NCBI GenBank assembly: GCA_023257515.1
Contig: JALRCA010000189.1
Coordinates: 1 to 40,790 of the forward strand
DNA length: 40,790 nucleotides
DNA from: Aeromicrobium sp.
GTDB lineage: Bacteria; Actinomycetota; Actinomycetes; Propionibacteriales; Nocardioidaceae
Direction: 5' to 3'
The position numbers and the translations under genes are program-made. Shown here in pieces: positions 7,106 through 22,564 of the stretch (position 1 is its first letter; the number at the start of each line of letters is the position of its first letter). Under the pieces are notes generated by a model. That model was not told where the DNA came from. It did not search any database and saw nothing but the letters and a program-made list of their open reading frames with translations.

Positions 7106-8401
7106 GTGACCGACACCGCCGCCGACCCGCAGGGTGCCCCGCCTCGCGTCGGCGGCCTGCGTCGGGCGAGCCGTCCGGTCGACCGCCGGCTCCTCGGTGG
7201 CGTCGCCGTCGGTGTCGCGGAGCACCTCGGGGTGCCGCCGTTGTGGGTGCGCGCCGGGTTCGTCGTCGCGACCTGGTTCAACGGCGCCGGCATCGTGGCG
7301 TACCTGCTGCTGTGGCGCCTGCTGCCGCTGGCGCAGCCGAAGTCCTCGCCGGGCGTCGAGTCCGCGACGCGTCGTGGACTGCGCACGCCCGGCCGGATCG
7401 GCCCGGTCGACGTGCTGCAGACGACGGCCGTCGTCGCCCTCGGCGTCGGCGTCCTCGTGCTGCTCCAGGTGGTCGGCCTGGGGCTCAACGACGGACTGGT
7501 CGTGCCGGCGGTCGTGGCGGTCGTGGGCGTGGCCGTGGTGTGGCGTCAGCTCGACGACGCCTCGCTCAGTCGGTGGATGCGCCAGCGGTCCGGGTGGGCC
7601 CTGGCCAGTCGGGTCGGCGCCGGCGTCGCGCTGGTCGCGATCGCCGGTCTGTACGTCGTCACCCAGGAGCGCGGCTGGAACGCCCTCGTCGACCTGGCGT
7701 CGGCGAGCGTCGTCGCGATCGTCGGCATCGGCCTGCTGCTCGGCCCGTGGATCGTGCGTCTGATGAGCGACCTGGGCGCCGAGCGGCGCGAGCGGATCCG
7801 CAGCCAGGAGCGGGCGGACGTCGCCGCGCACCTGCACGACTCGGTGCTGCAGACGTTGGCGCTGCTGCAGAAGAACGCCGGGGACCAGGCCACGGTGGCG
7901 ACGCTGGCCCGCCGGCAGGAGCGCGAGCTGCGCGCCTGGCTCTACGGCGACGAGGCCGACGAGGCCGACACGTGGGCCGCAGCACTGCGGGCGGTCGCCG
8001 CCGACGTCGAGGAGACCCACCAGGTGCCGGTCGAGGCCGTGGTCGTCGGTGACGTCGCCCTCGACCCGGACGTCGCGGCCCTGGTCCGGGCCGCGCGGGA
8101 GGCAGTCGTCAACGCGGCCAAGCATGCGGGAGTCGACCGCATCGACGTGTACGGCGAGACCGACGGGCGCACCGTCGAGGTGTTCGTGCGCGACCGCGGG
8201 ATCGGTTTCGACCCCGGCGACGTGCCCGAGGACCGCATGGGCGTCCGCGGCTCGATCGTCGACCGCGTGGAGCGTCACGGCGGCACCGCCTCGATCCGCA
8301 GCAGCGCGGGTCAGGGCACGGAGGTCGCGCTGCGCATGCCCGTGCGCACCGACCCGACCACGAGTATCGACCACACGAGCGAGGGGGAGGACCCCACATG
8401 A
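7106..8401 (+). CDS. PspC-fused sensor histidine kinase (NarL/LiaS class)
   Basis: A 431-residue sensor kinase. A PspC domain occupies about 23-74 (RRLLGGVAVGVAEHLGVPPL and so on), followed by four more hydrophobic helices up to about 222. A HisKA_3 dimerisation helix has the phospho-accepting histidine in HLHDSVLQT (H244). The HATPase domain has the N box REAVVNAAKHAG (N336) and the G box DRGIGFD (363-369). No long extracellular sensor loop exists, so it senses the membrane itself or other PspC proteins. The GTG at 7106 was chosen because the PspC domain follows at the usual distance. A weak GACGAT box lies 6 bases upstream, suggesting a leaderless start. It overlaps the regulator gene by 4 bases. 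Confidence 0.92.
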   Translation: MTDTAADPQGAPPRVGGLRRASRPVDRRLLGGVAVGVAEHLGVPPLWVRAGFVVATWFNGAGIVAYLLLWRLLPLAQPKSSPGVESATRRGLRTPGRIGPVDVLQTTAVVALGVGVLVLLQVVGLGLNDGLVVPAVVAVVGVAVVWRQLDDASLSRWMRQRSGWALASRVGAGVALVAIAGLYVVTQERGWNALVDLASASVVAIVGIGLLLGPWIVRLMSDLGAERRERIRSQERADVAAHLHDSVLQTLALLQKNAGDQATVATLARRQERELRAWLYGDEADEADTWAAALRAVAADVEETHQVPVEAVVVGDVALDPDVAALVRAAREAVVNAAKHAGVDRIDVYGETDGRTVEVFVRDRGIGFDPGDVPEDRMGVRGSIVDRVERHGGTASIRSSAGQGTEVALRMPVRTDPTTSIDHTSEGEDPT

Positions 8402-9063
8402 CCGACCGACTCCCCACGCCAGGCCGCCTGCGTGTCGCGATCGTCGACGACCACGCCATGTTCCGCACCGGCGTGCGCACCGAGCTCGAGCGCAGTGGCG
8501 CCGTCGACGTGGTGGGCGAGGCCGAGGACGTCGACTCCGCCATCGAGCTGGTGCGGGCCACGGCGCCCGACGTCGTGCTGCTCGACGTGCACATGCCCGG
8601 CGGTGGCGGTGGCGAGGTCATCCGGCGCTGCGGACCGACGACCAAGTCCACGTTCCTGGCGCTCTCGGTCAGCGACGCGGCCGAGGACGTCATCGGCATC
8701 ATCCGCGCGGGAGCCCGCGGCTACGTCACGAAGAACATCTCCGGCGACGAGCTCGTCGACTCCCTGGCCCGGGTCGCGGCGGGGGACGCCGTGTTCAGCC
8801 CGCGGCTCGCGGGGTTCGTGCTCGACGCCTTCGCCGGGACGATCGAGGTCGCCCAGGTCGACGAGGATCTCGACCGGCTCACCGAGCGCGAGCGCGAGGT
8901 CATGCGGCTCATTGCTCGCGGCTACGCGTACAAGGAGGTGGCACAGGAGCTGTTCATCTCGGTCAAGACGGTCGAGACCCACGTGTCCAGCGTCCTGCGC
9001 AAGCTCCAGCTCTCGAGTCGTCACGAGCTGACCAAGTGGGCCAACGACCGACGGCTCATCTGA
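8398..9063 (+). CDS. NarL/LuxR-family response regulator
   Basis: A 221-residue two-domain regulator. The receiver domain has acidic residues D17/D18, phospho-acceptor D63 in VVLLDVHMPGGGG, and the conserved Lys in GYVTKN. The C-terminal LuxR helix-turn-helix (about 154-215) contains LTEREREVMRLIARGYAYKEV and the recognition helix SVKTVETHVSSVLRKL. It is translationally coupled to the PspC-kinase gene (ATGA overlap, GGGGGAGG ribosome site). It probably controls the divergent PspC operon and its own operon through the inverted repeat at 7018-7050; this is inference. Confidence 0.95.
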   Translation: MTDRLPTPGRLRVAIVDDHAMFRTGVRTELERSGAVDVVGEAEDVDSAIELVRATAPDVVLLDVHMPGGGGGEVIRRCGPTTKSTFLALSVSDAAEDVIGIIRAGARGYVTKNISGDELVDSLARVAAGDAVFSPRLAGFVLDAFAGTIEVAQVDEDLDRLTEREREVMRLIARGYAYKEVAQELFISVKTVETHVSSVLRKLQLSSRHELTKWANDRRLI

Positions 9064-9080
9064 CCCTTGCCCCTCGCGAG

Positions 9081-9497
9081 TCAGGGGTGGAGGGCGAGCC
9101 CCTTCGTCGCCTTGTCGACCCCGTTGCGCGGACCGTGCACGGCGAGGCCCACGAGGTCGAGCTCGGCACGCGGCACGGCGCGGACGGCCGCGCGGTTGGC
9201 CTCGTCGTGGTCGGTGGTGAACATCTCACGGGTGTAGACGGCGACGGCGTGGTTGCGGTCGACCGCCTTCGCATGGGCGGTGCGGAGCTGCTCCAGCGAT
9301 CCCTGCAGCACGACGACCGGCTGGCCGATCAGGGCGAGGTAGGGCGTGCCGTCGGCGTCCTCGTAGGGTTCGCCGACGACCTCCGGTACGGCTGCGGCGA
9401 CGCCACTGGTGAGGAAGGCCGTCACGTTCAGGGCTTGCCAGGGGAGCAGGTCGTCGCGGAGGGCGACGACGATCTTGGTGTCGAATCGTCGGTCCAT
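9081..9497 (-). CDS. DUF2000 family protein
   Basis: A 138-residue protein with the DUF2000 pattern. It begins KIVVALRDDLLPWQALNVTAFLTSG, has PYLALIGQPVVVLQG in the middle, then HAVAVYTREMFTTDHDEANRAAV and LVGLAVHGPRNGVDKATKG near the end. The biochemical role of the family is unknown. The ATG at 9497 is chosen over the upstream in-frame ATG at 9548 because the family starts here and the upstream stretch is not conserved-looking. It is divergent from, and 49 bases away from, an AraC-type regulator gene, which probably controls it. Confidence 0.82.
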   Translation of the reverse strand: MDRRFDTKIVVALRDDLLPWQALNVTAFLTSGVAAAVPEVVGEPYEDADGTPYLALIGQPVVVLQGSLEQLRTAHAKAVDRNHAVAVYTREMFTTDHDEANRAAVRAVPRAELDLVGLAVHGPRNGVDKATKGLALHP

Positions 9498-9534
9498 GTC
9501 CCGAGGATCGCCCGCCGCGGCGCCCGGGGTCTTG

Positions 9535-9540
9535 TACGTT
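9535..9540 (+). promoter_or_regulatory. -10 box of a leaderless promoter (AraC regulator)
   Basis: TACGTT ends 6 bases before the ATG at 9547, and no ribosome-binding site is present between them. Confidence 0.5.
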
Positions 9541-9546
9541 CCTGGC

Positions 9547-10341
9547 ATGGGACCGGCGGAGCACGTGGAGGCCTGGCGCCCCGCCGTCGTGGGGGTCGGC
9601 GAGGTGCTGGTCGCTCACTTCACCGAGCACACCTACCCGGCGCACACGCACGACCAGTGGACGATCCTGCTCGTCGACACCGGCGGTGTCGACTACGCCC
9701 TCGGCCGCGACGACCACCACGCGGGACCGCGCTCGCTGACCGTCCTGCCGCCGCACGTGCCGCACGACGGACGGGCCGCACGGGCCGAGGGGTTCGACAA
9801 GCGCGTCGTGTACGTCGACGACCGGTGGCTGGCCGACGACCTGGTCCCGCACGCGGTCCGCGATCCCCTGGTGGTCGACGAGGCCGTGCGAGGCGACGTC
9901 GGCCGGTTGCACGCGGCGCTCGGGCGAGGGGGTGACGAGCTCGAGGCGGAGTCGCGCACAGCGCTCGTGACGGAGTCGATCGCCGCAGCCCTCCGTCGGG
10001 CCGAGCCGGTGCAGGAACGCCACGCGCCGCGGGTCGCCCGGGTCGCGCGGGAGCGTCTCGACGCCCACCTGCTCGAGCCGCCGAGCCTCGTGACCCTGGC
10101 CGACGACCTCGGGGTCCATCCCACGCACGTCGTCCGGGCTTTCACCCGCGAGCACGGGCTCCCGCCGCACCGCTACGTCACCGGTCGTCGTGTCGACCGG
10201 GCCCGGCGGCTGCTGCTCGAGGGGATGCCCCTCGCCGACGTCGCGGCCGCGACCGGGTTCTACGACCAGGCGCACCTGACCCGCCACTTCCGCCGCGTGC
10301 TCGGCGTGACGCCGGGCGTGTTCGCGCGGCACGTGGCGTAG
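9547..10341 (+). CDS. AraC-family transcriptional regulator
   Basis: A 264-residue regulator with an N-terminal cupin-type sensing domain. HTHDQWTILLVDTGGVDYAL is at about 34-53, with PHVPHDGRA ending the barrel. The C-terminal double helix-turn-helix of the AraC family is at about 165-260 (LADDLGVHPTHVVRAFTREHG; DVAAATGFYDQAHLTRHFRRVLGVTPG). Such proteins bind DNA as activators in response to a small ligand. It is divergent from the DUF2000 gene over 49 bases, a pairing that suggests local control. A hairpin 6 bases after the stop could end its transcript. Confidence 0.93.
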   Translation: MGPAEHVEAWRPAVVGVGEVLVAHFTEHTYPAHTHDQWTILLVDTGGVDYALGRDDHHAGPRSLTVLPPHVPHDGRAARAEGFDKRVVYVDDRWLADDLVPHAVRDPLVVDEAVRGDVGRLHAALGRGGDELEAESRTALVTESIAAALRRAEPVQERHAPRVARVARERLDAHLLEPPSLVTLADDLGVHPTHVVRAFTREHGLPPHRYVTGRRVDRARRLLLEGMPLADVAAATGFYDQAHLTRHFRRVLGVTPGVFARHVA

Positions 10342-10347
10342 CCGCGG

Positions 10348-10364
10348 CCGGGCACCGAGCCCGG
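10348..10364 (+). terminator. Possible terminator after the AraC gene
   Basis: CCGGGC (10348-10353) and GCCCGG (10359-10364) form a perfect 6-bp stem around ACCGA, 6 bases after the stop codon. There is no U tract, as is usual in actinobacteria. Confidence 0.45.
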
Positions 10365-10422
10365 TTCCTGCTCACGAGGCCCGCTGCGCAACCCGGGCTC
10401 CGAGGGGGGAGCCGTGCTCGGT

Positions 10423-10456
10423 GCGCTGGTTCCCCGGCGAGCCTGGGAATCAGCGC
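10423..10456. repeat. Dispersed hairpin element, copy 2
   Basis: GCGCTGGTTCCC (10423-10434) pairs over all 12 positions (one G-T) with GGGAATCAGCGC (10445-10456) around the loop CGGCGAGCCT. The block GGCGAGC-x-TGGGAATCAGCG-x-GCC is shared with copy 1 (522-555 region) at 22 of 24 positions. The two 5' arms differ in sequence yet keep pairing. The element lies 15 bases beyond the stop of the 59-residue gene, so like copy 1 it follows a minus-strand gene. Confidence 0.6.
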
Positions 10457-10470
10457 GCCCACCGGGACGT

Positions 10471-10650
10471 TCAGACCGCGATGCCCTCGTCGTCGGCCGA
10501 CGCGGTCTCGGCGACCGGCTGCGCCATGCGACGTGTCAGGTCCAGGTGTCGCGTCAAGGCCGCGTGCGGCGCGCCCCGCAACGTGGTGACGCGACCCACG
10601 TGCCGTCCGGACGATCGCCACGCGGTCAGGGCTCGGTACAGCTCGTCCAT
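10471..10650 (-). CDS. Small hypothetical protein (59 aa) downstream of whiB
   Basis: A 59-codon gene from ATG at 10650 to TGA at 10471-10473. The protein begins MDELYRALTAWRSSGRHVGR and ends ADDEGIAV; it is basic in the first half and acidic at the end. GGGAGA lies 6 bases upstream, codon use is GC-rich in third positions, and the gene follows the 92-residue gene by 15 bases, which supports it being real. It has no recognised domain. As the third gene of a whiB-led operon, it may be involved in the same regulation; its function is unknown. Confidence 0.65.
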   Translation of the reverse strand: MDELYRALTAWRSSGRHVGRVTTLRGAPHAALTRHLDLTRRMAQPVAETASADDEGIAV

Positions 10651-10665
10651 CGTGATCTCCCGTGG

Positions 10666-10944
10666 TCAGGCGCTCAGGGGCGCGTCGGGGGTGCCGGCCG
10701 TCGAGAGGTGGACCAGCGTGGCGTCGGTCGTCACCTCGGCGACGGCCAGCTGTGCTGCGCGCACCAGGACGTCGACGTCGGGCGTCTCGACCACGACGTG
10801 GTGGGCGCGACCGTCGCCGTTCGCGAGGGCGGTGGCGTCGCTGCCCAACGCGTGGGCGACGGCGCGGGCCGCGCGGACGGCGGAGAGCTCGTCCGGCACG
10901 CGGAAGATCTGCACGCACCAGAGGGACTCGGCGAGCACGCTCAT
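10666..10944 (-). CDS. Hypothetical protein (92 aa) co-transcribed with whiB
   Basis: A 92-residue soluble protein, MSVLAESLWCVQIFRVPDEL at the start, with alternating strands and helices (FRVPDELSAVRAARAVAHAL; HHVVVETPDVDVLVRAAQLA). The pattern suggests a small alpha/beta fold of ferredoxin or ACT type, but I cannot name it. Its start codon overlaps the stop of the WhiB gene by one base (TGATG) and GGAGG precedes it, so translation is coupled. Confidence 0.8.
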   Translation of the reverse strand: MSVLAESLWCVQIFRVPDELSAVRAARAVAHALGSDATALANGDGRAHHVVVETPDVDVLVRAAQLAVAEVTTDATLVHLSTAGTPDAPLSA

Positions 10945-11237
10945 CACGCGACCTCCGGGCGGGTGAGCGGCGCGTAGGTGGCCTCGCGCTCCTCGCGCGT
11001 CATGCCGCCCCACACGCCGTACGGCTCGCGGACCGACAGGGCGTGCTCACGGCACTGCTGCTTGACCGGGCACCCGGCGCACACCTGCTTGGCGCGCTCC
11101 TCGCGCAGGAGCTTGGCCTGCCCGCGCTCGGCGTCCGGGCTGAAGAAGGCGCTGGACTCCATGCCCACGCACGCGCCCTCGTACTGCCATTCGTAGATCT
11201 CCTGCAGAACCTTCGGCAACCGCGACAAGTTCGCCAT
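10944..11237 (-). CDS. whiB3: WhiB3/WhiD-like iron-sulfur transcription factor
   Basis: A 97-residue WhiB-family protein. The four cluster cysteines are C23, C53, C56 and C62 (C-X29-C-X2-C-X5-C), followed by the GVWGG turn at 74-78 and a basic tail. The region MESSAFFSPDAERGQAKLL, then RAKQVCAGCPV and REPYGVWGGM, matches the M. tuberculosis WhiB3 / Streptomyces WhiD branch rather than WhiB1 or WhiB2. Such proteins carry a [4Fe-4S] cluster sensitive to oxygen and NO and work with the principal sigma factor. The ATG at 11237 has GGTGGAGG upstream. It leads an operon with two small genes and is divergent from a MerR-type gene. Confidence 0.92.
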   Translation of the reverse strand: MANLSRLPKVLQEIYEWQYEGACVGMESSAFFSPDAERGQAKLLREERAKQVCAGCPVKQQCREHALSVREPYGVWGGMTREEREATYAPLTRPEVA

Positions 11238-11371
11238 GATCGTGCCTCCACCCCGAGTCGAGAATCTGAACTGATCTTGTGCACAACCTACGCACGTGTT
11301 GCTCATGGCGCCAAAGCCCTGAACAAGTTTTGTCGAGATCCTGCGAAACTGTTCATCTGCGGGTGCCCAGG

Positions 11372-11399
11372 TTGCGGCGGGTCAAACGCCGCCTACCGT
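11372..11399 (+). promoter_or_regulatory. Possible promoter of the MerR-type gene
   Basis: TTGCGG (11372-11377) and TACCGT (11394-11399) are separated by 16 bases and lie 31 bases before the ATG at 11431. The 193-base divergent region 11238-11430 is less GC-rich than its surroundings, which fits a regulatory role. No classical MerR dyad was found between the boxes. Confidence 0.35.
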
Positions 11400-11430
11400 C
11401 GAGGATGCGGCCGATCCGAGGGAGGCAGCC

Positions 11431-11751
11431 ATGACGGATCACGATCCCGTGGCCTCGGCGTGCGACCAGTTCGGGCACGAGAGCGGACTGGCGTGGAGCA
11501 TCGGGGCGACGGCCGAGGCACTCGAGGTGCCGGCGGCGACGCTGCGGGCATGGGACACGCGCTACGGCATCAGCCCGTCCCACCGCAGCGACGGAGGACA
11601 TCGGCGGTACACGTGCGAGGACATCGACCGTCTGCGTGTCATGCAGCGGTTCCAGGCCCTGGGGGTCCCGACGCGCGAGGCGGCCGAGCAGGCGCGCTCC
11701 TACTCGAGCGAGAAGCTCCACGCCTTCGCCCGCGAGGCGCTCCCGGCCTAG
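11431..11751 (+). CDS. MerR-type helix-turn-helix protein lacking an effector domain
   Basis: A 106-residue protein. A MerR-class winged helix occupies about 22-75 (SIGATAEALEVPAATLRAWD, then the GHRRYTCEDIDRLRVM wing and linker helix). After a second helix, RFQALGVPTREAAEQA, the protein ends, without a dimerisation coiled coil or ligand domain. It may bind DNA in the way short BldC-like proteins do. The ATG has GGGAGG 6 bases upstream. It is divergent from whiB, so the two may influence each other. Confidence 0.85.
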   Translation: MTDHDPVASACDQFGHESGLAWSIGATAEALEVPAATLRAWDTRYGISPSHRSDGGHRRYTCEDIDRLRVMQRFQALGVPTREAAEQARSYSSEKLHAFAREALPA

Positions 11752-11829
11752 ACCGAGGCGACTCGCGCCCGGTTCCGCGGGTCGGTGGCTCGGCCGCTCT
11801 GGGTCCTGGGTGGGGCGCGTTGGGGTTCG

Positions 11830-11858
11830 CCCGTCGACCCTTCGACGGGCTCAGGGTC
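11830..11858. repeat. Dispersed palindromic repeat, possible bidirectional terminator
   Basis: CCCGTCGA (11830-11837) and TCGACGGG (11842-11849) form an 8-bp stem with a 4-base loop. Alternatively GACCCT (11836-11841) pairs with AGGGTC (11853-11858). The core TTCGACGGGCTCAGGGTC resembles short palindromes scattered through many actinobacterial genomes, and a related one lies at 36377-36399. It sits between two convergent genes, where it could stop both transcripts. Confidence 0.6.
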
Positions 11859-11882
11859 CTGGGTGTGAGGGGGGTGCTCGGG

Positions 11883-12092
11883 TCAGCTGGACAGCTTGCG
11901 CAGGGACGACTCCTTGTGAGCCGCCGTGGCGCCGGTCTTCTCCGACTCGACGATCCAGTACGGCTCGTCGTCGGAGGCCTGGAACTTCTGCTTGTCGTGC
12001 TGGAACGGAGCGGTCCGCCTCTCCACGGCCTTGCCCTGCGTGCGGCCCTGGGACGTGCCCCACGAGACCCGGTCACCCTTCGAGATCGCCAT
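11883..12092 (-). CDS. DUF2945 (Tudor-like) small protein
   Basis: A 69-residue protein beginning MAISKGDRVSWGTSQGRTQG, with DEPYWIVESEKTGATAAHK near the end. This is the DUF2945 pattern, described as a Tudor-like or hypervirulence-associated small beta-barrel; its molecular role is unknown. No ribosome-binding site precedes the ATG, but TAGCGT lies 6 bases upstream, so it is probably translated from a leaderless mRNA. It stands 43 bases downstream of the 104-residue gene on the same strand, apparently with its own promoter. Confidence 0.85.
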   Translation of the reverse strand: MAISKGDRVSWGTSQGRTQGKAVERRTAPFQHDKQKFQASDDEPYWIVESEKTGATAAHKESSLRKLSS

Positions 12093-12098
12093 GGTCCG

Positions 12099-12104
12099 AC
12101 GCTA
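12099..12104 (-). promoter_or_regulatory. -10 box of a leaderless promoter (DUF2945 gene)
   Basis: TAGCGT on the minus strand ends 6 bases before the ATG at 12092. Confidence 0.55.
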
Positions 12105-12135
12105 GGCCGGACGGCGCCGAATCGCCTCCTGGGAC

Positions 12136-12450
12136 TCAGAGGTCGAGCGTGTTCACCCAACGGCGGCCCTCGTCGCCGCCCCACGCGTCCCACGCGACCC
12201 GTCCGGGTGAGGGGAAGCCGGGCGTGCCGCGGGTGAACCCGTCCGCCTGCTTGTCGACGTCGTGCCGCGCGAAGTAGGCGCGCATCTTCTTGGCCTGCTC
12301 GGTGCTGAGGGACTCGCCGTCGGCGAGCTGATGAGCGCGCCGACGACCGGTGTCGGTGAAGCCCTGGCCTGCCTTGCCCTGCTCGATCCAGCGGACCGCG
12401 CGCCGGCCGACCTCCTGCACGGACTTCGGGGGAGTGTGTCGCTCGCTCAT
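12136..12450 (-). CDS. Hypothetical protein (104 aa) with a phage-like C-terminal motif
   Basis: A 104-residue basic protein. The C-terminal half has KKMRAYFARHDVDKQADGF and then GFPSPGRVAWDAWGGDEGRRW. A similar signature (an RxMxxYFxRHxVDKQ stretch followed by SxGRxAWxxWGGDxGxxW) is familiar to me from actinobacteriophage and bacterial hypothetical proteins; its function is unknown. The N-terminal half (VQEVGRRAVRWIEQGKAGQG) is charged and helical. GGAGG precedes the ATG, which overlaps the stop of the 90-residue gene by 4 bases. No other phage gene is nearby, so this looks like a resident gene rather than a prophage. Confidence 0.72.
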   Translation of the reverse strand: MSERHTPPKSVQEVGRRAVRWIEQGKAGQGFTDTGRRRAHQLADGESLSTEQAKKMRAYFARHDVDKQADGFTRGTPGFPSPGRVAWDAWGGDEGRRWVNTLDL

Positions 12451-12719
12451 GCCTCCAGCGTGCGGGCGGCTCGGACGTCGTGCACCTCGGGCGCGGACGA
12501 CGGCGCGGAGTGCCGCAGGACGATGCGGGGGTGCGCCCGCAGCACGAGGTGCTCGACGGTCGCGGCGCGGTGCTCGGGGTAGGTCAGGTAGAGGAACGTC
12601 GACTGGGAGTCCCCGTGCAGCCACTGTGCCGGAAGGTCGCACAGCTGGGTCACGAGGACGGCGCCGAGCCGGTCCGCCGCGCTCGAGTCGGTCGGCATCG
12701 AGAACGTCGTCGTGATCAT
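12447..12719 (-). CDS. Hypothetical protein (90 aa)
   Basis: A 90-residue protein starting MITTTFSMPTDSSAADRLGA, with the hydrophobic/aromatic middle LPAQWLHGDSQSTFLYLTYP and HLVLRAHPRIVLRH. No family is recognised. GGAGG-like sequences precede the ATG at 12719, and the stop overlaps the start of the 104-residue gene (ATGA), so the pair is coupled. The gene lies 56 bases after the ferredoxin-like gene on the same strand and may belong to the same transcription unit. Confidence 0.7.
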   Translation of the reverse strand: MITTTFSMPTDSSAADRLGAVLVTQLCDLPAQWLHGDSQSTFLYLTYPEHRAATVEHLVLRAHPRIVLRHSAPSSAPEVHDVRAARTLEA

Positions 12720-12775
12720 CGCGTGCTCCGCCCGTTCCTCCGGTTGTGGAGCAGAACGAGGGAGGGTGGCGAACG

Positions 12776-13687
12776 TCACGGCCCGTCGGGCAGGTCCGCT
12801 GCATGGAGGTCCTCGACGACGTACTCGACGGAGGCCGCGGCCGCAGGAGCCCGACAGGTGAGCACCGCAGGCTCGCGTCGGTGGGCGACCACCCGCGCCT
12901 CCACCACGCGGGGGAGCGGGGCTCGGCACCGCAGCCTGACGGACCAGCGGTGGCCGCGCTCGACCACGACGACCGCTCCCGACTCGACGGCGTCGGCCGG
13001 ACCCGGACCCCAGCGGTGATGGGCGGCGACCTCGACGGCCTGGGCCGCCGGGGCGAGCCTGCTGCTGCCGCGCAGGTGCTCCGGACTGACCGCGCCCTCG
13101 AGGTGTCGTCGGACGACGTGGTCGGCCGACGGGGCGTCGAGACCGCCGTAGAGGGCGCCGTCGGGGAGCACCAGGACATTCGCCGCGAACCGGTCGCCAC
13201 CGACGTGCGTGCACTCCCAGACCGGGACGCCCGCGGAGCCGGCCAGCGCCGCCGCCACCGGGCGACCGCGGACGGCACAGCAGGTGTCGTGCCGGCCGTG
13301 GGCGCACACCAGCACGAGCGGCTCGTCGGACCAGTCGTCGGACGGGGACTCCAGCACGGCGCGCGCGGCGAGCAGGTCCGTCGGCTCGGTCCACGTGCCC
13401 CAGCGGGAACGGCCGCCGACCACGTCGACCACGCCCCACCGCCGGCGCTCCTGGACCCGGCGGCGGCCGGGACGGCGGATCAGGAGCGTGCGTGCACCGG
13501 CGCGCCGGGTGACGGTGACGAGGGCGGCGACGACCTCGGGCTCGAGGCCGTCGGCCTCCAGGGCGTGGAACGGCCAGGGGCCGGGGTGCTCGATGAGCAG
13601 GAACCGGCGAACGTGCAGCGCCGTGCCGGGGCGTGGGTCCTGTCGCGACAGCGCGGCACCTGCGCACAGGGCGTCTACGTCGGCCAC
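12776..13687 (-). CDS. Sucrase/ferredoxin-like protein (thioredoxin-fold ferredoxin)
   Basis: About 303 residues. The family signature is clear: LVLVCAHGRHDTCCAVRGRP, then VWECTHVGGDRFAANVLVLP, the cysteine and histidine motifs of the sucrase/ferredoxin-like family. These are thioredoxin-fold proteins thought to bind a [2Fe-2S] cluster and act in electron transfer. The C-terminal third is a separate strand-rich region. The start is uncertain: I chose GTG at 13687 because it follows the cupin stop by 31 bases and gives a protein of family length; the in-frame ATG further upstream would lie inside the cupin gene. It follows the JmjC gene on the same strand and could supply it, or its partner, with electrons; that is speculation from position. 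Confidence 0.85.
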   Translation of the reverse strand: MADVDALCAGAALSRQDPRPGTALHVRRFLLIEHPGPWPFHALEADGLEPEVVAALVTVTRRAGARTLLIRRPGRRRVQERRRWGVVDVVGGRSRWGTWTEPTDLLAARAVLESPSDDWSDEPLVLVCAHGRHDTCCAVRGRPVAAALAGSAGVPVWECTHVGGDRFAANVLVLPDGALYGGLDAPSADHVVRRHLEGAVSPEHLRGSSRLAPAAQAVEVAAHHRWGPGPADAVESGAVVVVERGHRWSVRLRCRAPLPRVVEARVVAHRREPAVLTCRAPAAAASVEYVVEDLHAADLPDGP

Positions 13688-13718
13688 GTCGAGGATCCTG
13701 CCCGTCCGGCGCGGAACG

Positions 13719-14948
13719 TCACCGAGGGCGGGCGACGACGAGCAACCCTCGTCCGAGCCAGTCCTTGGCCAGGTCGAGCCCGACGCGGTCCGCCTCGACC
13801 TCGTCGCCAGCGAGGAGGCCGGACAGCGTCGCGGTGTCGAGGGACGTCGCGTCGAACGTGCCGACACGGGTGTGTAGCCGGTCGTCGCGGACCGAGGCGC
13901 CGACGTGGTCACGCAGGCGGAGGACGTCGGTCGACGTCAGGTTGCGTGCGGCCCGGAGCTGCGCGAGCGGACCCACCGGCGCGGGCCGCGAGGACGCGCG
14001 GTCCTGGGTGGTGAGCGCCGCGACGATCGTGTCGACGGGCACCGACTCCACGGCCCGCAGCAGTGCTGCCCGGACGAGCTCGGCACGCTCGCGCACATCG
14101 TCGGTCCGGGAGAGGTCGACGCCCAGCGGGAGCGACGCGCGCACCTCGGGGTCCTCGACCAGGGCGGCGAGCGCGGCCGAGCCGAGCTCGGTGGCCACGT
14201 GGTGACCGTGCCACGGGTGGACGCCGAACGTCAGGTGCGTGCTCACGTCGCCCAGCGCCGTGGCGGCGTGGAGGGTGCCGCGTGGCAGGTAGAGGCAGTC
14301 GCCGGGCTCGAGCACCTCGTCGATGAGGGGCTCTGTCCGTGCGGCCGCTGCGACCTCGTCGCGGCGGTCGGTCCACGGCTGGTCGCGCAGCGGCGCCTCG
14401 TGGACGGGCGCGTGGATCCGCCAACGCTTGCGACCGGCGACCTGCAGCACGAACACGTCGTGGACGTCGTAGTGGTCGTCGAACCCGCGCGACTGGGGCG
14501 GCGTGACGTAGGCGTTGACCTGCACCGGGTGGCCGAGGTCAGCGGCGAGCTGCTGCGTGAACGTGGTCACCGGCGCGTACGTGCGGTGCAACGCCTGCAG
14601 CACCAGGGTGGACCCTTCGGCGAACAGTGCGGACAGCTTGGAGTCGTCGAGCTGGTCGGCGATGCCGGCGCCCGTACCGCCGCCGGAGGTGAAGGCGCGG
14701 GCCGCGAGCGTCTCGCCGTCGCGAGCCACGCGCAGGAAGGGCGTCCGCAGCCCGCGGCGCGAGACGAGCTCGTCGACCGCCTCCTCGGAGAACAGGTCGT
14801 CGACGTCGCCGGGCAGCTCGTCGGCCCGGTGCAGCGCCGGGTGGCTTCCCCAGGTGCGGGCCGCGAAGTCCTCGACGTCGGCGACGAGCCGCCCGAGGGC
14901 GGGACGGCCGGCCCGCAGGCCGGCCGTCCCGTGATCGATGACGACCAT
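13719..14948 (-). CDS. JmjC/cupin Fe(II)-2-oxoglutarate oxygenase (ribosomal-oxygenase type)
   Basis: A 409-residue protein with the cupin_4/JmjC core of the RoxA/MINA53/NO66 group, which hydroxylate side chains (Arg, His) of proteins. The metal triad is visible: H159 and D161 in DDHYDVHDVFVLQVAGRKRW, and H227 in LEPGDCLYLPRGTLHAA. The N-terminal NAYVTPPQSRGF leads into the barrel, and a helical C-terminal part of about 150 residues matches the dimerisation/winged-helix region of this group. Its start lies 7 bases after the stop of a 53-residue repeat-peptide gene, and the ferredoxin-like gene follows by 31 bases. The target could be a ribosomal protein, as for RoxA, or the neighbouring peptide. 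The family is secure; the substrate is unknown. Confidence 0.88.
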   Translation of the reverse strand: MVVIDHGTAGLRAGRPALGRLVADVEDFAARTWGSHPALHRADELPGDVDDLFSEEAVDELVSRRGLRTPFLRVARDGETLAARAFTSGGGTGAGIADQLDDSKLSALFAEGSTLVLQALHRTYAPVTTFTQQLAADLGHPVQVNAYVTPPQSRGFDDHYDVHDVFVLQVAGRKRWRIHAPVHEAPLRDQPWTDRRDEVAAAARTEPLIDEVLEPGDCLYLPRGTLHAATALGDVSTHLTFGVHPWHGHHVATELGSAALAALVEDPEVRASLPLGVDLSRTDDVRERAELVRAALLRAVESVPVDTIVAALTTQDRASSRPAPVGPLAQLRAARNLTSTDVLRLRDHVGASVRDDRLHTRVGTFDATSLDTATLSGLLAGDEVEADRVGLDLAKDWLGRGLLVVARPR

Positions 14949-14955
14949 CGAGGTG

Positions 14956-15117
14956 TCAGTCCGCGCTTCCGTCGGCGCCGCCGTCGTGCACGCCCGGGGT
15001 GCCCTCGGCTCCGCCGTCGGCGGGACCCTCGGCGCCACCGTCGGCGCCGCCGTCCTGGACGCCTGGGGTGCCCTCGGCTCCGCCGTCGGCGGGACCTTCG
15101 GGGTTGAGCTCGCTCAT
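14956..15117 (-). CDS. Acidic tandem-repeat peptide (53 aa), possible substrate of the JmjC enzyme
   Basis: A 53-codon gene starting at ATG 15117 with a strong GGAGGA site. After MSELNP come two copies of a 23-residue unit (residues 7-29 and 30-52, then a final D). Each unit contains EGPADGGAEGTPGV, then Q or H, then DGGADG; the copies differ only at Q21/H44 and G28/S51. There is no Cys, Lys, Arg or aromatic residue, and the peptide is strongly acidic with repeated DGGA steps. It has no signal peptide. The stop is 7 bases from the start of the JmjC oxygenase gene on the same strand. Repeated short units beside a protein-hydroxylating enzyme recall multi-core precursor peptides; that role is a hypothesis. 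The longer form from TTG at 15189 lacks a ribosome site. Confidence 0.8.
   Translation of the reverse strand: MSELNPEGPADGGAEGTPGVQDGGADGGAEGPADGGAEGTPGVHDGGADGSAD
14962..15099 (-). repeat. 69-bp tandem duplication within the peptide gene
   Basis: Two adjacent 69-base units, 15031-15099 and 14962-15030, encode the two 23-residue repeats. They are nearly identical in DNA as well as protein, so the duplication is either recent or kept uniform. Confidence 0.8.
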
Positions 15118-15210
15118 CGTGTCCTCCTTCGTCGGGTGCACGGCGTGACCGCCGTGGTCCCACCGTGGCACCGTCGGGCGGACACGCAAGTCGGTCCCAT
15201 CCCTCGAGCA

Positions 15211-15275: not shown

Positions 15276-16238
15276 TCAGGGGAGCCAGGCCTTGATCTTG
15301 TCCTGGTTCGCCTTGATCCACTTGTCGGCGGCCTCGTCGGCGCTCATCTTGTCCTCGGCGATGTACTTCGCGACGAGGTTCTGGTCGTCGTTCGTCCAGG
15401 AGAAGTTCTTGACGACCTTGAAGGCGTCGCTGTCGCTGTCGGCGAACTTCTTGGCGACGAACTTCTTGAGCTTCGTCTCCGGGTAGTCGCACGTGATCTT
15501 CTCGGCATCGGCGTCGCAGCCCGGCGTGTACTTCGGCAGGTCGACCTTGACGAGCTCGACCTCGGACAGGAACCACTGCGGCTCGTAGAAGTAGCCCAGG
15601 AGCGGCTTCTTGTTCTTCTCGGCCTGGCGGAACGCCGTGATGAGCGCGGCCTCGCTGCCGGCGTAGACGACCTTGTAGTCCAGCTTGTTGTTCTTGACGA
15701 GCGCCTCGTCGTTCGTCACGAACGACGGGTCGCCGTCGAGCAGCTGGCCCTTGCCGCCGGACTCCGACGTCTTGAACAGGTCGGCGTACTTGTTGAGGTT
15801 CTTCCAGTCGGTGATGTCGGGGTACTTCTTGGCCATCCACGGCGGCACGAACCAGCCGATCTGCCCCACGTTGCCGTTCTCGCCCAGGTCGACCGCGGTC
15901 GGGTTGGCGGACTTCACGTACTTCTTCTCCAGGTCCGGGTGGCCCCAGTCCTCGATGATGACGTCGACGTCCTTGCCGAAGCCCTGCCAGGCGACCTCCT
16001 CCTTGAGGTTCTTGTAGTCGACCTTGCAGCCGAGCTTCTGCTCGATGACGCGACCGACCACGTGGGCGGAGGCCTCGAAGCCCACCCACGGGTTGATCGC
16101 CATGTTCACGGTCTCCTTGCAGTCGCCGCCTGAGCCGGAGGAGGAGTCGATGTCCCCACCCCCGCAGGCGGACAGCACCAGGGCGGCGCTCGCGGTCAGC
16201 GCGGCCAGCAGGCCCACGCGGCGGACGGAACTCTTCAT
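15276..16238 (-). CDS. Glycine betaine/choline ABC transporter, substrate-binding lipoprotein
   Basis: A 320-residue lipoprotein. The N terminus MKSSVRRVGLLAALTASAAL runs into the lipobox LSAC with C25 as the lipidated cysteine. A short Gly/Ser spacer leads to an OpuAC/ProX-type binding domain. Aromatic residues likely to form the cation-pi cage are seen in NPWVGFEAS, EDWGHPD, GWFVPPWMAKKYPD and GYFYEPQWFL. Such proteins deliver glycine betaine, choline or related quaternary amines to the permease. AGGAGA precedes the ATG. It is the last gene of the bet operon, 16 bases after the permease, and is followed by a strong terminator. Confidence 0.94.
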   Translation of the reverse strand: MKSSVRRVGLLAALTASAALVLSACGGGDIDSSSGSGGDCKETVNMAINPWVGFEASAHVVGRVIEQKLGCKVDYKNLKEEVAWQGFGKDVDVIIEDWGHPDLEKKYVKSANPTAVDLGENGNVGQIGWFVPPWMAKKYPDITDWKNLNKYADLFKTSESGGKGQLLDGDPSFVTNDEALVKNNKLDYKVVYAGSEAALITAFRQAEKNKKPLLGYFYEPQWFLSEVELVKVDLPKYTPGCDADAEKITCDYPETKLKKFVAKKFADSDSDAFKVVKNFSWTNDDQNLVAKYIAEDKMSADEAADKWIKANQDKIKAWLP

Positions 16239-16254
16239 GGTTGTCTCCTCTGGG

Positions 16255-18218
16255 TCACCCGACGACCTGGTTCGTCGGGCTGGTCCGCCGGACCCATCCT
16301 TGGGTCATGCGGTCGAACATGATCGCGAGCGCGGTGATCGCGATGCCTGCTGCCAGGCCCTTGCCGAACAGCTCGGTCTGCGAGAACCCGGCCACCACGA
16401 GGTAGCCGAGCCCGACGCCGCCCACGAGCCCACCGATGACGACGACGGAGAACACGTAGAGCAGGCCCTGGTTGGCCGCGAGCGCCACGCTCGAGCGCGC
16501 CATGGGCAGCTGGACCTTCGTGATGAGCTGCCAGCGGCTCGAGCCCGCCGCGGTCGCGGCCTCGACGGTGGTCGGCGCGACCCCGCGCACGCCGTCGCAC
16601 ACGAGCTTGATGGCGACGGGCGCCGCATAGACGACCGCGGCGACGATCGCCGTGAAGCGTGTCGTGCCGAACAGGGCGAGGGCGGGCACGAGGTAGACAA
16701 AGGGCGGGATGGTCTGGGCCGTGTCGAGGACCGGTCGGACCACGAGGTCGACGCGGTGGTTGTTCGCCATCCAGACGCCGACCACGAGCGCCAGCAGGAT
16801 GGTGATGCTGGCGCCGACGAACGCGGAGGCGAGCGTCACCATCGCCTCGTGCCAGATGCCGACGGCGAGGATGATCGCGACACACGCGACGGACGTGACC
16901 CCCGAGCGCCAGCCGCCCACGAGGGCGCCGATCGCGACGAGCGCACCGGCCGTGAGCCACCACGGCGAGTCGGCGAGGAGCGCCTGGAACGGGTTCAGCA
17001 GGCCGTAGGTGAAGGCCTCGGTGACGGGTCGGGTGACGACCGAGCCGTGGTCGGAGACCCAGTCGGCGACGGCCTGGGCACCGTCGCGCACCGGCGAGCC
17101 GAGGTCGGGGCGCTCGGGGAACGCGGCCAGGTCCAGGTACAGGCGCGAGTAGTACACGGCGACACCAGCGGCGACGGCACCGCCGACCAGGCCGGCACGG
17201 CGTCGTCTCGTCCGGCTCGGGCTCCGCACGAGGCCCGTCCGCTCGCCCGCCTGCGTGGTGACGCGATCGAGCCAGATGGCCATGATCGCGATGAGGACGC
17301 CGGCGGTGAACGCCGTGCCGACGTCGAGCGACTGGAGGGCGGTGATGACCGGGACGCCGAGTCCAGGGGAGTTGATGAACGCCGCGATCGTGACCATCGA
17401 CAGCGCCGCCATGATCGTCTGGTTGACGCCGACCAGGATCGTGCGCCTGGCCATCGGCAGCTGCACGCCGAGCAGTCGCTGACGCGTCGTCGTGCCGACG
17501 GACTCGGATGCCTCGAGCACGCCGGGGTCGACCGAGCGGATGCCCTCGGCCGTGACGCGCACGACCGGCGCGAAGGCGTAGATCGCGGTCACGATGACGG
17601 CGGGTGCCGCCCCGATGCCGAAGGCGAGGGTGATCGGCAGCAGGTAGACGAACGACGGCATGGTCTGGAGCACGTCGAGCACGGGGGTCACGACGGTCGT
17701 GACGCGTGGGCTGATCCCCATCCAGAGGCCGAGCGGGATCCCGAGCACGAGCGTGATGAGCACCGCGAGGAACGTGACCAGCAGCGTGTCGATGCTCTCC
17801 TCCCAGTAGCCGAACGTGCCGAAGGCCCCGAAGACGAGGACGGTCAGCACGCCCCAGCGCCATCCGGCGACGGCCCACACCACGAGCACCGCGATCGCGA
17901 CGACACCGAGCCACCCGACCTCGGGGACGGGTCGGCCCGCCGGCGCGTCGCTGAACCAGCCCTGCAGCGTGCTGACGACCGACCCCAGTGCCGACGAGAG
18001 CCCGTCGAGCACGCGCAGGACCGCGTTGCCACCACGATCGGTGCCCAGGTCCTCGTTGACACCGTTGACCCAGCGCTGGAAGTCCGACAGGTCCGAGCGG
18101 GCGACGGCGAGGGTCTGGCGTCCGTTGAGGACGAACGCGAGGACGATCCAGACGATCGCGACGCCGCCGAGGGCGAGGCCACGCCGGGAGCCGGCCCGGC
18201 CGGCGGCATCGGCGACCG

Positions 18219-18222
<4 letters not shown>
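16255..18222 (-). CDS. Glycine betaine/choline ABC permease, fused double ProW-type domain
   Basis: A 655-residue permease made of two ProW/OpuAB-like membrane domains in one chain (about 110-330 and 430-640). Each carries its own ATPase-coupling EAA loop: [23 protein letters not shown] in the first and [23 protein letters not shown] in the second. Most relatives use two copies of a 280-350 residue subunit, so the fusion replaces a homodimer. The GTG at 18222 overlaps the ATPase stop (GTGA) and has GAGGAGG upstream. An ATG further upstream lies inside the ATPase gene and is rejected. It works with the flanking ATPase and binding protein. Confidence 0.93.
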
Positions 18223-19273
<1,051 letters not shown>

Positions 19274-19277
<4 letters not shown>

Positions 19278-20974
19278 CGTGCCTCCTGGTTCCGGGGGTC
19301 CCCCGGAGGATAGAGCGGATCACCGGCACGGTGTCGGTAGAACGGCACATCTGCCGGGGCGAGGGGGGTCTGTCCCGCGATGAGGTCGGCGGCCTTCTCG
19401 GCCAGCATCATGACGGGCGCGTAGATGTTGCCGTTCGTGATGTACGGCATGGACGACGCGTCGACGACCCGCAGGCCCTCGACGCCGTGCACGCGCATCG
19501 ACGCCGGGTCGAGCACGCTCTCGGCGTCGGTGCCCAGGCGGGCGGTGCACGACGGGTGCAGCGCCGTCTCGGCGTCCTCGGCGACCCAGTCGAGGATCTC
19601 CTGGTCGGTCTCCACCGACGGTCCGGGCGAGAGCTCGCCGGCGTTGAACGGGGCGAACGCGGGCTGGTTCATGATGCGGCGCGCCTCGCGGATCATCTCG
19701 ATCCACTCGCGGCGGTCGTTCTCGGTCGAGAGGTAGTTGAACCGCAGGGCGGGGTGCTCGAACGGGTCGCGTGACTTCAGCGTCACGCTGCCGCGGCAGT
19801 CGGAGTACATCGGGCCGATGTGCACCTGGTAGCCGTGCTCGGCAGCCGGCTGCGAACCGTCGTAGCGGATCGCGATCGGGAGGAAGTGGAACATCAGGTT
19901 GGGGTAGTCGACCTGGTCGTTGCTGCGGATGAACCCGCCGCCCTCGAAGTGGTTCGTGGCGCCGACTCCGCGCCGCAGGAAGAGCCACTCGGCGCCGATC
20001 CGCGGCTTGTGGCGGTGCTTGAGCCAGGGTCCGATCGAGACGGGCTGCTTGCTCGCGTACTGCACGTAGACCTCGAGGTGGTCCTGCAGGTTGCGACCCA
20101 CGCCGGGCAGGTCCGCCACGACGTCGATGCCGAGCTCGCGCAGCTCGTCGGCCGGGCCGATGCCGGCGAGCAGCAGGAGCTGCGGGGTGTTGATCGCGCC
20201 GCCGCACAGGATGACCTCGCCCGCGGTGACCCGGTGATCGCCACGTCCTGCGCGGCGGTAGTCGACGCCCGTGACCCGAGTGCCCTCGGTCACGAGTCCG
20301 GTGACCTGGGCCAAGGTCTCGATCGTCAGGTTCGGTCGCTTCTTGACGGGGTGCAGGTAGGCGCGGGCTGCGCTCAGGCGTCGGCCGCGGTGCACGTTGC
20401 GGTCGAAGGGGGCGAAGCCCTCCTGCCGGTAGCCGTTGACGTCGTCGGTCAGCGGGTGGCCCGCCTCCTGGACGGCCTCGAAGAACGCGCCGAACAGCGG
20501 GCTGGTCGCCGGTCCGCGCTCCATCACGAGCGGGCCGCTGCCGCCGCGCCAGGCGTCGGCGCCCGCGAGGCACGTCTCCATGCGCTTGAAGTACGGCAGG
20601 CAGTGCGCGTAGTCCCAGGACTCCATGCCGGGGTCGGCGCCCCATCGCTCGTAGTCGAGCGGGTTGCCGCGCTGGAAGATCATGCCGTTGATGCTCGACG
20701 ACCCGCCGAGCACCTTGCCGCGCGCGTGGTAGACCCGACGGCCGCCCATGAACGGCTCCGGCTCGGACTCGTACTTCCAGTCGTAGAGCTTGTTGCCGAT
20801 CGGGTACGGCAGTGCGGCCGGCATGTGGATGAACGGGTCGAGCTTGACGTCCGAGCGGCCCGCCTCGAGCACGAGGACGCTCGTCGAGAGGTCGGCGCTG
20901 AGGCGGTTCGCCAGCACGCTGCCGGCGGACCCGCCGCCGACGATGACGTAGTCGTAGGTGTCGCGGCGGGTCAT
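19274..20974 (-). CDS. betA: Choline dehydrogenase (GMC oxidoreductase)
   Basis: A 566-residue flavoenzyme that oxidises choline to betaine aldehyde, and often on to betaine. The FAD dinucleotide motif is [19 protein letters not shown] (7-25). The GMC signatures are [19 protein letters not shown] (about 85-103) and [16 protein letters not shown] (about 250-265). Catalytic residues lie in [10 protein letters not shown] and [16 protein letters not shown] near the C terminus. Length and the C-terminal pattern agree with bacterial BetA rather than with alcohol oxidases. It overlaps betB upstream and the transporter ATPase downstream by 4 bases each, so oxidation and uptake are made from one mRNA. 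Confidence 0.95.
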
Positions 20975-22485
20975 GCGGGGGTGTCCTCGGTCTCGGTGCT
21001 GCTGGCGAACCACGCGGCGGGGGCCGGCGCGATGTTGTGCCACACGTGCTTGGTCTCGCGGTACTCGTCGAGCCCGGCCAGGCCGAGCTCGCGGCCCGTG
21101 CCGGACTGCTTGTAGCCGCCCCACTCGGCCTGCGGGACGTAGGGGTGGAAGTCGTTGATCCACACCGTGCCCATCCGCAGGCGATTCGCGACGCGCTCGG
21201 CTCGCCCACCGTCGCGGGTCCACACGGCGCCGGCCAGGCCGTAGATGGAGTCGTTCGCGATCTCGACGGCCGCGGTCTCGAGCTCGGTGTCGTCGGCTCC
21301 CTCGAACGTCTCGACCGTGAGGACCGGTCCGAAGGACTCGTCGTGCACGACCGACATGCCGCGGCGACAGCCGCCCAGCACGGTCGGCAGGTAGTAGAAG
21401 CCGTTCGCCAGCGCGGGGTCGTCGGGACGGGCGCCGCCGCACAGCAGCTCCGCGCCCTCGGCGAGTCCGGCAGCGACGTAGGCCTCGACCTTGTCGCGGT
21501 GCGCCGCCGAGATGAGCGGGCCCGTCTCGGCGTGCTCGTCGAAGGGTCCGCCGAGGCGGATCAGGCGCGCCCGACGCACGAGCTCGGCCACGAAGTCCTC
21601 GGCGATCGACGCCTCGACGACGAGGCGGGCGCCGGCGGAGCACACCTGCCCCGAGTGCAGGAACACCGCGGTCAGGGCGTTGTCGAGCGCGGCCTCTCGG
21701 TCGGCGTCGGCGAAGACGATGTTGGGGTTCTTGCCGCCGAGCTCGAGCGCGACCTTCTTGACGGTCGCAGCCGCGGCGGCCATGATCCTGCGACCGGTCG
21801 CGAGACCGCCCGTGAACGAGACGAGGTCGACGTCCGGGTGCTCGACGAGGGCGGCCCCGACACCCGCGCCGGCGCCCAGCAGCAGGTTCGCGACGCCGTC
21901 CGGCAGTCCGGCCTCGGCCAGGGTCCGCACGAGCAGCACGGACGTCGAGGGGGACAGCTCGCTCGGCTTGAGCACGAACGTGTTGCCCGCCGCCAGGGCG
22001 GGGGCCACCTTCCACGACGTCTGCAGCAGCGGGTAGTTCCAGGGCGAGATGAGCACGCACACGCCGACGGGCTCGTGGACCACCCGGCTGACCACGTCGG
22101 GCCGACCGGTGTCGACGATGCGGCCGGCCTCGGCCCCGGCGAGCGTCGCGTAGTGACGGAAGACCCCGATGACGTCGTCCATGTCGTACTCGCTCTCGAC
22201 GAGACGCTTGCCCGTGTCCAGGCTCTCGGCCCGCGCGTAGGCCGCCTTGTCCCGCTCGAGCAGGTCGGCGACCCGCAGCAGCAGGGCCGCGCGCTCCTGA
22301 GCGGGCACGGCGCTCCAGCGGCCGTCGTCGAAGGCTCGTCGTGCTGCCTCGACGGCGGGCGCGGCGTCGGCGGGTCCCGCCTCGGACACCGTCGCGACGT
22401 GGCTGCCGTCGGCGGGGCAACGGATCTCGCGGGTGGCGCCGTCCTGGGCGTCACGCCAGCGACCGTCGATGAAGAGCTCCGGCAC
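20971..22485 (-). CDS. betB: Betaine-aldehyde dehydrogenase
   Basis: A 504-residue NAD(P)-dependent aldehyde dehydrogenase producing glycine betaine from betaine aldehyde. Active-site residues are N150 (SPWNYPLLQ), K173 (LKPSE), E248 (LELGGKNPN) and the nucleophile C282 ([12 protein letters not shown]). The C-terminal [18 protein letters not shown] matches the BADH branch. The GTG at 22485 is chosen because AAGGAGGAAC lies directly upstream; the upstream in-frame start at 22536 would include the operator region. First gene of betB-betA-transporter, with its own promoter and the TGTTGC-N27-GCAACA element in the leader. Confidence 0.94.
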
Positions 22486-22494
22486 GTTCCTCCT

Positions 22495-22533
22495 TGTTGC
22501 AGATGGCGAGGCTTCGTGCTGCCTTCCGCAACA
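22495..22533. promoter_or_regulatory. 39-bp inverted repeat operator of the bet operon (TGTTGC-N27-GCAACA)
   Basis: TGTTGC at 22495-22500 and GCAACA at 22528-22533 are exact inverse copies separated by 27 bases. The element fills the betB leader, beginning 2 bases after the -10 box, where a bound protein would block transcription. An element with the same arms and the same 27-base spacer lies in the dimethylglycine oxidase promoter (34342-34380). The IclR regulator encoded just upstream is the obvious candidate to bind it. Confidence 0.6.
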
Positions 22534-22535
22534 CA

Positions 22536-22564
22536 ACGCTCGGCCTGGTGAGCTCGGGCGTCAA
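22536..22564 (-). promoter_or_regulatory. Probable betB promoter
   Basis: On the minus strand, TTGACG (22564-22559) and GAGCGT (22541-22536) are 17 bases apart. The -35 is near perfect and the -10 is weak, as expected for a promoter needing or escaping a regulator. It lies in the 134-base region between the IclR gene and betB. Confidence 0.45.

Follow-up and report, generated by a model that had tools for sequence, protein, structure and literature searches.

The window, which is the whole 40,790-nucleotide stretch of DNA analyzed here (contig JALRCA010000189.1 of an Aeromicrobium sp.), carries three closely spaced genes on the minus strand, in the order 53-residue acidic peptide, 7 nt, JmjC_2 oxygenase, 31 nt, Suc_Fer-like protein. 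The features discussed are the following.

14956..15117, minus strand: ORF of a 53-aa acidic peptide with two 23-aa DGGA-type units, the proposed substrate (precursor)
15123..15128, minus strand: Shine-Dalgarno sequence AGGAGG before the peptide ATG
13719..14948, minus strand: JmjC_2/ROX-type 2-oxoglutarate oxygenase, 409 aa, ATG at 14948 (from PF08007, conserved residues and a structure model)
12776..13687, minus strand: Suc_Fer-like protein, 303 aa, the proposed accessory redox protein (from PF06999, conserved residues and a model)
12447-12717, minus strand: 90-aa ORF directly after the Suc_Fer gene

Re-reading of the sequence and its ORFs bore out the coordinates and content that had been given for 12776..15117 by an earlier reading of the DNA letters (the sequence-only reading), including the 7-base and 31-base spacings and the ribosome site, AGGAGG at 15128-15123. 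The 90-aa ORF gave no match in a Pfam profile search and was rejected as an operon member because no homolog was found among the compared loci; it may be strain-specific. Near the operon are a gene for a WhiB-family regulator (82.9 bits; 10944-11306, minus strand) and, divergent to it, one for a MerR-family regulator (59.3 bits; 11431-11751, plus strand). Upstream, at 15276-22536 on the minus strand, a choline/glycine-betaine set was recognized by eye from the ORF translations, consisting of a substrate-binding lipoprotein, permease, ATPase, choline dehydrogenase and betaine aldehyde dehydrogenase.

The window peptide consists of MSELNP, which is all that precedes the repeats, followed by the units EGPADGGAEGTPGVQDGGADGGA and EGPADGGAEGTPGVHDGGADGSA and a final D. 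The near-identity of the two 23-residue units that had been claimed was found to extend to 21 of 23 residues and 62 of 69 nucleotides, with five synonymous and two nonsynonymous codon differences, and the peptide indeed lacks Cys, Lys, Arg, Phe, Tyr and Trp. No match was obtained for the window peptide with Pfam and NCBIfam models, for seven further peptides (two of the DGGA type and five of other types) with NCBIfam, or for five peptides (one of the DGGA type and four others) with Pfam. Public annotation sometimes names such peptides 'BatC'.

The oxygenase matched PF08007 (JmjC_2) with 98.8 bits (cut-off 22), and the intact H-x-D...H iron triad noticed earlier corresponds to H159, D161 and H227. 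These residues and K174, which we take from family knowledge to be the probable 2-oxoglutarate ligand, are conserved at 99-100% in the close, mid-distance and far sets of homologs described below; R68, R122 and Q118 are invariant in the close and mid-distance sets, and R73 reaches 95% in the far set. The AF2 model (pLDDT 92.7) was closest to human NO66 (E 6e-23, TMq 0.65), then to MINA53 and then to RoxA/YcfD, and the enzyme shares its sequence family, fold and HxD...H triad with this ROX family. The ROX members act on ribosomal proteins, according to the titles of their PDB entries, whereas the window oxygenase has a linked acidic peptide gene; we know of no linked peptide gene for the known ROX members. 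A further difference is that Q118 and R122, as read by eye from an alignment with NO66, face Leu and Ala, respectively, and an Arg opposite the Ala of NO66 would fit an acidic substrate.

The conservation of the peptide–oxygenase linkage was evaluated in loci found by the enzyme sequence alone, with linkage scored as an upstream same-strand ORF containing at least four D[GSAN][GS][AST] motifs. The loci came from an oxygenase-only scan of named actinobacteria, of which the best 80 of 88 confirmed loci were kept (Nocardioides, Streptomyces, Arthrobacter, Microlunatus, Brevibacterium, Kocuria and others are among the matches listed), and from a survey of 394 genomes of the host class, in which 129 genomes had an oxygenase match at E 1e-10 and 265 had none. 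From this survey, 130 of 150 places were compared; the remaining 20 were G014, G097, the weakest matches and a number of second matches. In the close set, which comprises 142 loci with an enzyme above 185 bits relative to that of the window (itself included), a DGGA-repeat ORF was found just upstream of the enzyme in 136, compared to 0 on the opposite strand, where lowering the threshold to two motifs gave 1, and 1 downstream. Of the six exceptions, L002 is cut by a contig end, L039 has a short upstream stretch with one motif, and L141 and L142 have Asp-rich peptides of other sequence. The remaining two, L097 and L099 (one genus code), combine a close enzyme with a non-repeat acidic peptide and have neither a DGGA ORF nor a Suc_Fer match, and they count against the explanation preferred below.

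An association was also found at the level of whole genomes: among 62 genomes whose enzyme match was close (E below about 1e-60), 37 had at least three one-strand matches to DGGAD[GSR][GA]A, compared to 8 of the 332 others (Fisher p 1.3e-27; counts tallied by hand). The value of 37 is a low count because the pattern misses DGSA/DGTA-type repeats, and in none of the 8 pattern-positive genomes without a close enzyme does a single place hold three matches. The sequence-only reading had turned on whether repeat peptides adjoin this enzyme clade in other genomes, and the 136 of 142 loci, with controls of 0 and 1, together with the genome-level association, answer that they do. A plasmid set searched with the enzyme at 1e-30 gave no match, and in PHROGs the enzyme has matches to four families, all of unknown function.

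A start could be called for 133 of the 136 DGGA peptides, the starts being computed guesses. These peptides are 53-179 aa long (median 87), with a net charge of -10 to -32 and 4 to 21 motifs each; their Asp residues are most often spaced by 4, all 133 contain Asp, Gly and Ala, and a DDDI-like leader form is present in 24. An SD-like site precedes 117 of them, and k-mer counts upstream of the peptides gave a few enriched words, such as CTCCGGTTGC-like ones. When successive recognized units inside one peptide were compared codon by codon (2486 comparisons, 55 loci), 745 differences were synonymous and 79 nonsynonymous, indicating that the peptide is under purifying selection at the protein level. 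Because the repeat number varies, the short ORF might be taken for a slippage artefact in GC-rich DNA, with the repeat being untranslated or attenuator-like, but the excess of synonymous differences, the SD-like sites and the fixed strand and place of the ORF in 136 of 142 loci make this very improbable.

The mid-distance set, with enzymes at about E 1e-34 to 1e-53, consists of 12 loci of the host class and 19 from other classes, the latter obtained in a second survey in which the enzyme was matched in 42 of 296 genomes, 29 of them outside the host class and 19 of these compared. In all 31 loci, an acidic, mostly Asp-rich peptide lies upstream of the enzyme, with cores such as ..DGTDGDATDGTDGDAG.., ..DADASDADAADAD.., ..DTDTTDSTDTD.. 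or two PTEDDENLDAPGEHSQDTGDE units. These peptides were first chosen by Asp content and then re-scored with controls by a fixed rule, which takes the ORF of 40-200 aa with an SD-like site and the highest Asp share in its C-terminal half. By this rule the C-terminal half of the best ORF was at least 20% Asp in 29 of 31 loci and at least 12% in 30 of 31, and 12% was reached in 0 of 31 on the opposite strand, downstream or further upstream. The best ORF of L235 reaches 12%, and the peptide of L240 was missed by the rule and seen by eye when the SD demand was dropped. The leader pattern [LVI]x[DE][DENSAQ][DEQ][IM]x[TRS] (about LxDDDIxT) was present in 29 of the 31 peptides; when the same N-termini were shuffled 200 times, the average number of peptides with the pattern was 0.02 and the highest was 1. 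As far as can be judged from these patterns, the mid-distance peptides have a shared leader followed by a changing, Asp-rich core.

The third gene of the operon is conserved as well. The Suc_Fer-like protein of the window matched PF06999 with 72.8 bits (cut-off 34.9), and such genes were sought on the same strand within 1500 nt downstream of the enzyme. Where a close locus offered 900 nt of sequence or more, a Suc_Fer gene was present in 119 of 139; for mid-distance loci the required length was 600 nt, and 26 of 29 had the gene. The 20 of 139 close loci without a Suc_Fer match count against the preferred explanation. C8, C128, C136, C137, H161 and C278 are the invariant residues, of which C128, C136, C137 and H161 are invariant in 31 aligned rows. 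The model (pLDDT 93.3) contains a thioredoxin-like [2Fe-2S] ferredoxin domain, and its best PDB match is the weakly similar thioredoxin-like [2Fe-2S] ferredoxin of Aquifex (E 2e-3, TM by target 0.70); compared to such ferredoxins, the invariant C128, C136, C137 and H161 suggest mixed Cys/His ligands. Taken together, the comparisons indicate that the genes for peptide, oxygenase and ferredoxin-like protein stay together far more consistently than chance would allow, and that the three appear to form a conserved unit in several actinobacterial classes.

The type of peptide follows the enzyme tree. In a tree of 167 enzyme rows, five peptide types required 4 changes, which is the minimum, and with the unlabelled rows treated as a sixth group there were 13 changes relative to a shuffled mean of 82.4. 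This was a quick tree, with long branches among the rows labelled 'none', a label that wrongly covers L229, L240 and probably L206 and L210, and near-copies help the clustering, so that the agreement appears supportive rather than independent proof of co-inheritance.

These results bear on whether the enzyme could be a ribosomal oxygenase such as RoxA, NO66 or MINA53, with the peptide a separate small protein that shares its operon. Membership in the JmjC_2 family, the best matches in both sequence and fold, which are NO66, MINA53 and RoxA/YcfD, and the presence of one JmjC_2 match in the window genome (88% complete) are what would be expected of such an enzyme. However, the peptide–enzyme linkage persists across classes though the cores change, and the 265 of 394 class genomes that have no match at E 1e-10 are unlike what a housekeeping modifier would give; we consider this explanation quite unlikely. 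Because the association of the three genes is so far above chance, the peptide is very probably the partner of the oxygenase, and because this unit is accompanied by protein-level selection and co-inheritance with the enzyme, it is most likely the substrate.

The enzymes of the far tier (E about 1e-18 to 1e-33) also have short peptides of several types beside them. In the EVEVEDLAEVTSRDITAGGDSDGTDSSSDFI type, all 20 loci have an S9 prolyl-oligopeptidase homolog upstream in the same orientation, and 6 of the 20 have a gene for an FhuF_C-like protein on the downstream side of the enzyme, the available sequence often being short; the FhuF_C-like protein of L211 scored 27.2 bits (cut-off 20.5), and with 21.1 bits it did not reach the 63.85 bits that the NCBIfam FhuF model requires. 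In 13 loci of the PSDGGGTGRSDTND type, a gene for an aldo/keto-reductase-like protein (PF00248, 26.3 bits on part of one) starts no more than 90 nt after the enzyme stop, and in the DPDGSDG type Suc_Fer is on the other strand in L214. Fifteen far homologs have no recognized peptide and count against the preferred explanation. One of these, L191, has a 91-aa ORF ending in WDWDGTDGYFVTDPDPTDAAWHPA about 250 nt upstream of the enzyme, which is possibly another peptide type.

Another explanation is that the peptide serves as an acidic partner, a regulator or a chaperone, binding to the oxygenase or to Suc_Fer through its charge. This would suit the strongly negative net charge of the 133 DGGA peptides, their low complexity and the variation of the core between branches, but substrates typically show a leader, a changing core and multiplied repeats, and in the far branches members of the enzyme family are accompanied by short peptides of leader-core-like form, one type being next to a peptidase gene in all 20 of its loci. 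We consider such a role unlikely.

If the peptide is the substrate, the composition of the cores bears on which residue is modified. The sequence-only reading had proposed Asp, His or Gln, or Pro. In the 31 mid-distance C-terminal halves, Asp makes up at least 13% everywhere, Gly can be as low as 2%, and every other residue is missing from at least one; His is absent from 28, Pro from 24, Gln from 21, and all three from 17. In the repeat regions of the 133 DGGA peptides, His is missing from 20, Gln from 83 and Pro from 13. Therefore, His, Gln and Pro were rejected as the general target, being absent from many peptides of both sets, and Asp is abundant throughout. A substrate modified at another residue or by other chemistry (the His of HDGG, Pro, Thr/Ser, cleavage or desaturation) would accord with the hydroxylation of His by NO66 and MINA53 (PDB titles) and with the His present in 113 of 133 DGGA peptides, but given the many cores that lack His, and the many mid-distance halves that lack Pro, it seems improbable. 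Asp alone is abundant in every core and is therefore, by composition, the likeliest modified residue, its hydroxylation being the simplest chemistry to propose, although another core position may be used instead; the nearest solved relatives, which act on His or Arg of ribosomal proteins and not on Asp (entry titles), count against this reading.

We consider it reasonably probable, therefore, that these genes constitute a single three-gene operon for a RiPP-like peptide that is hydroxylated on Asp by the oxygenase. The oxygenase would bind the peptide through the leader or the acidic repeats and, with Fe(II), 2-oxoglutarate and O2, would hydroxylate Asp side chains, most simply at C-beta. The reaction would be repeated along the core, the repeats multiplying the sites per molecule, and the [2Fe-2S] Suc_Fer protein would keep the enzyme iron reduced or act on the modified, metal-loaded peptide. 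In the branch of the window the product probably stays inside the cell, because no linked protease or exporter was seen; within the limits of the window, the earlier remark on the lack of both near the operon holds for this branch. Elsewhere, there are the prolyl oligopeptidase homolog of the EVEVEDLAEVTSRDITAGGDSDGTDSSSDFI type and, in one locus, an ABC transporter with an S9 peptidase.

Metal ligands consisting of beta-hydroxy-Asp are known from non-ribosomal siderophores, and poly-(beta-hydroxyaspartate) peptides made by the ribosome would be a gene-encoded counterpart. The [2Fe-2S] partner and the FhuF_C-like protein of a far branch make metal binding by beta-hydroxy-Asp attractive, and a tentative, rather doubtful extension is that such peptides, found across the phylum, bind Fe(III) or Ca2+, with a ROX-type oxygenase making them and a [2Fe-2S] reductase serving them, which within that reading would be Suc_Fer here and the FhuF_C-like protein in the far branch. 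The likeness to FhuF-type siderophore-iron reductases is confined to that far type, and an FhuF_C-like gene is absent from the window. A DtxR/IdeR-type iron box, sought as one consensus in the 250 nt upstream of 131 peptides, was matched no better than in shuffled DNA, as judged by the best mismatch counts; iron-box regulation was rejected on this basis, and the result counts against simple iron regulation.

Cinnamycin-type lanthipeptides undergo Asp hydroxylation by 2OG/Fe-type tailoring, and biphenomycin-type clusters carry JmjC enzymes. As in RiPPs with such tailoring, a small precursor gene was found beside the oxygenase, conserved in 136 of 142 close loci, and the peptides of the mid-distance branches appear to have a leader and a core. 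In contrast to such RiPPs, the oxygenase is the only evident peptide-modifying enzyme here, the branch of the window has no linked protease or exporter, and its core is a long Asp/Gly/Ala repeat. Peptide-modifying dioxygenases were reportedly treated by Iyer et al. in 2010, who might mention the pairing. In the parts of the open-access literature consulted, no description of the peptide–oxygenase pairing was recognized; passages of PMC13118837 mention a cupin-containing Streptomyces cluster and no peptide.

The wide recurrence of the peptide–oxygenase pairing among actinobacteria suggests a so far undescribed kind of peptide that is made by the ribosome and then modified by an enzyme. One carrier of the gene set is Streptomyces albidoflavus NRRL B-1271 (L066). 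If the suggestion is true, widespread soil genera, among them Streptomyces, Arthrobacter and Nocardioides, and other actinobacterial classes, would possess a peptide-modifying system whose peptides, among those profiled, match no Pfam or NCBIfam model, and the ROX enzymes would extend from ribosomal proteins to the repetitive modification of a dedicated acidic peptide. A testable question is whether the oxygenase introduces many +16 Da steps on Asp.

Further observations were made in individual loci. In L216, at 7116-13267 (L151 is the same place), a JmjC_2 enzyme, the ABC transporter, the S9 peptidase and a Cys-containing peptide (MAETKTLKMDEIQVET...CDPDPSDDCWIVCNPNYCY) occur together in what looks like a separate export-type RiPP cluster. 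In L213, a weak APH-type phosphotransferase (30.3 bits) is encoded at 9291-10127 on the plus strand, near a JmjC_2/short-peptide pair, and a similar 284-aa protein of L212 gave tblastn matches in 11 loci, its own included.
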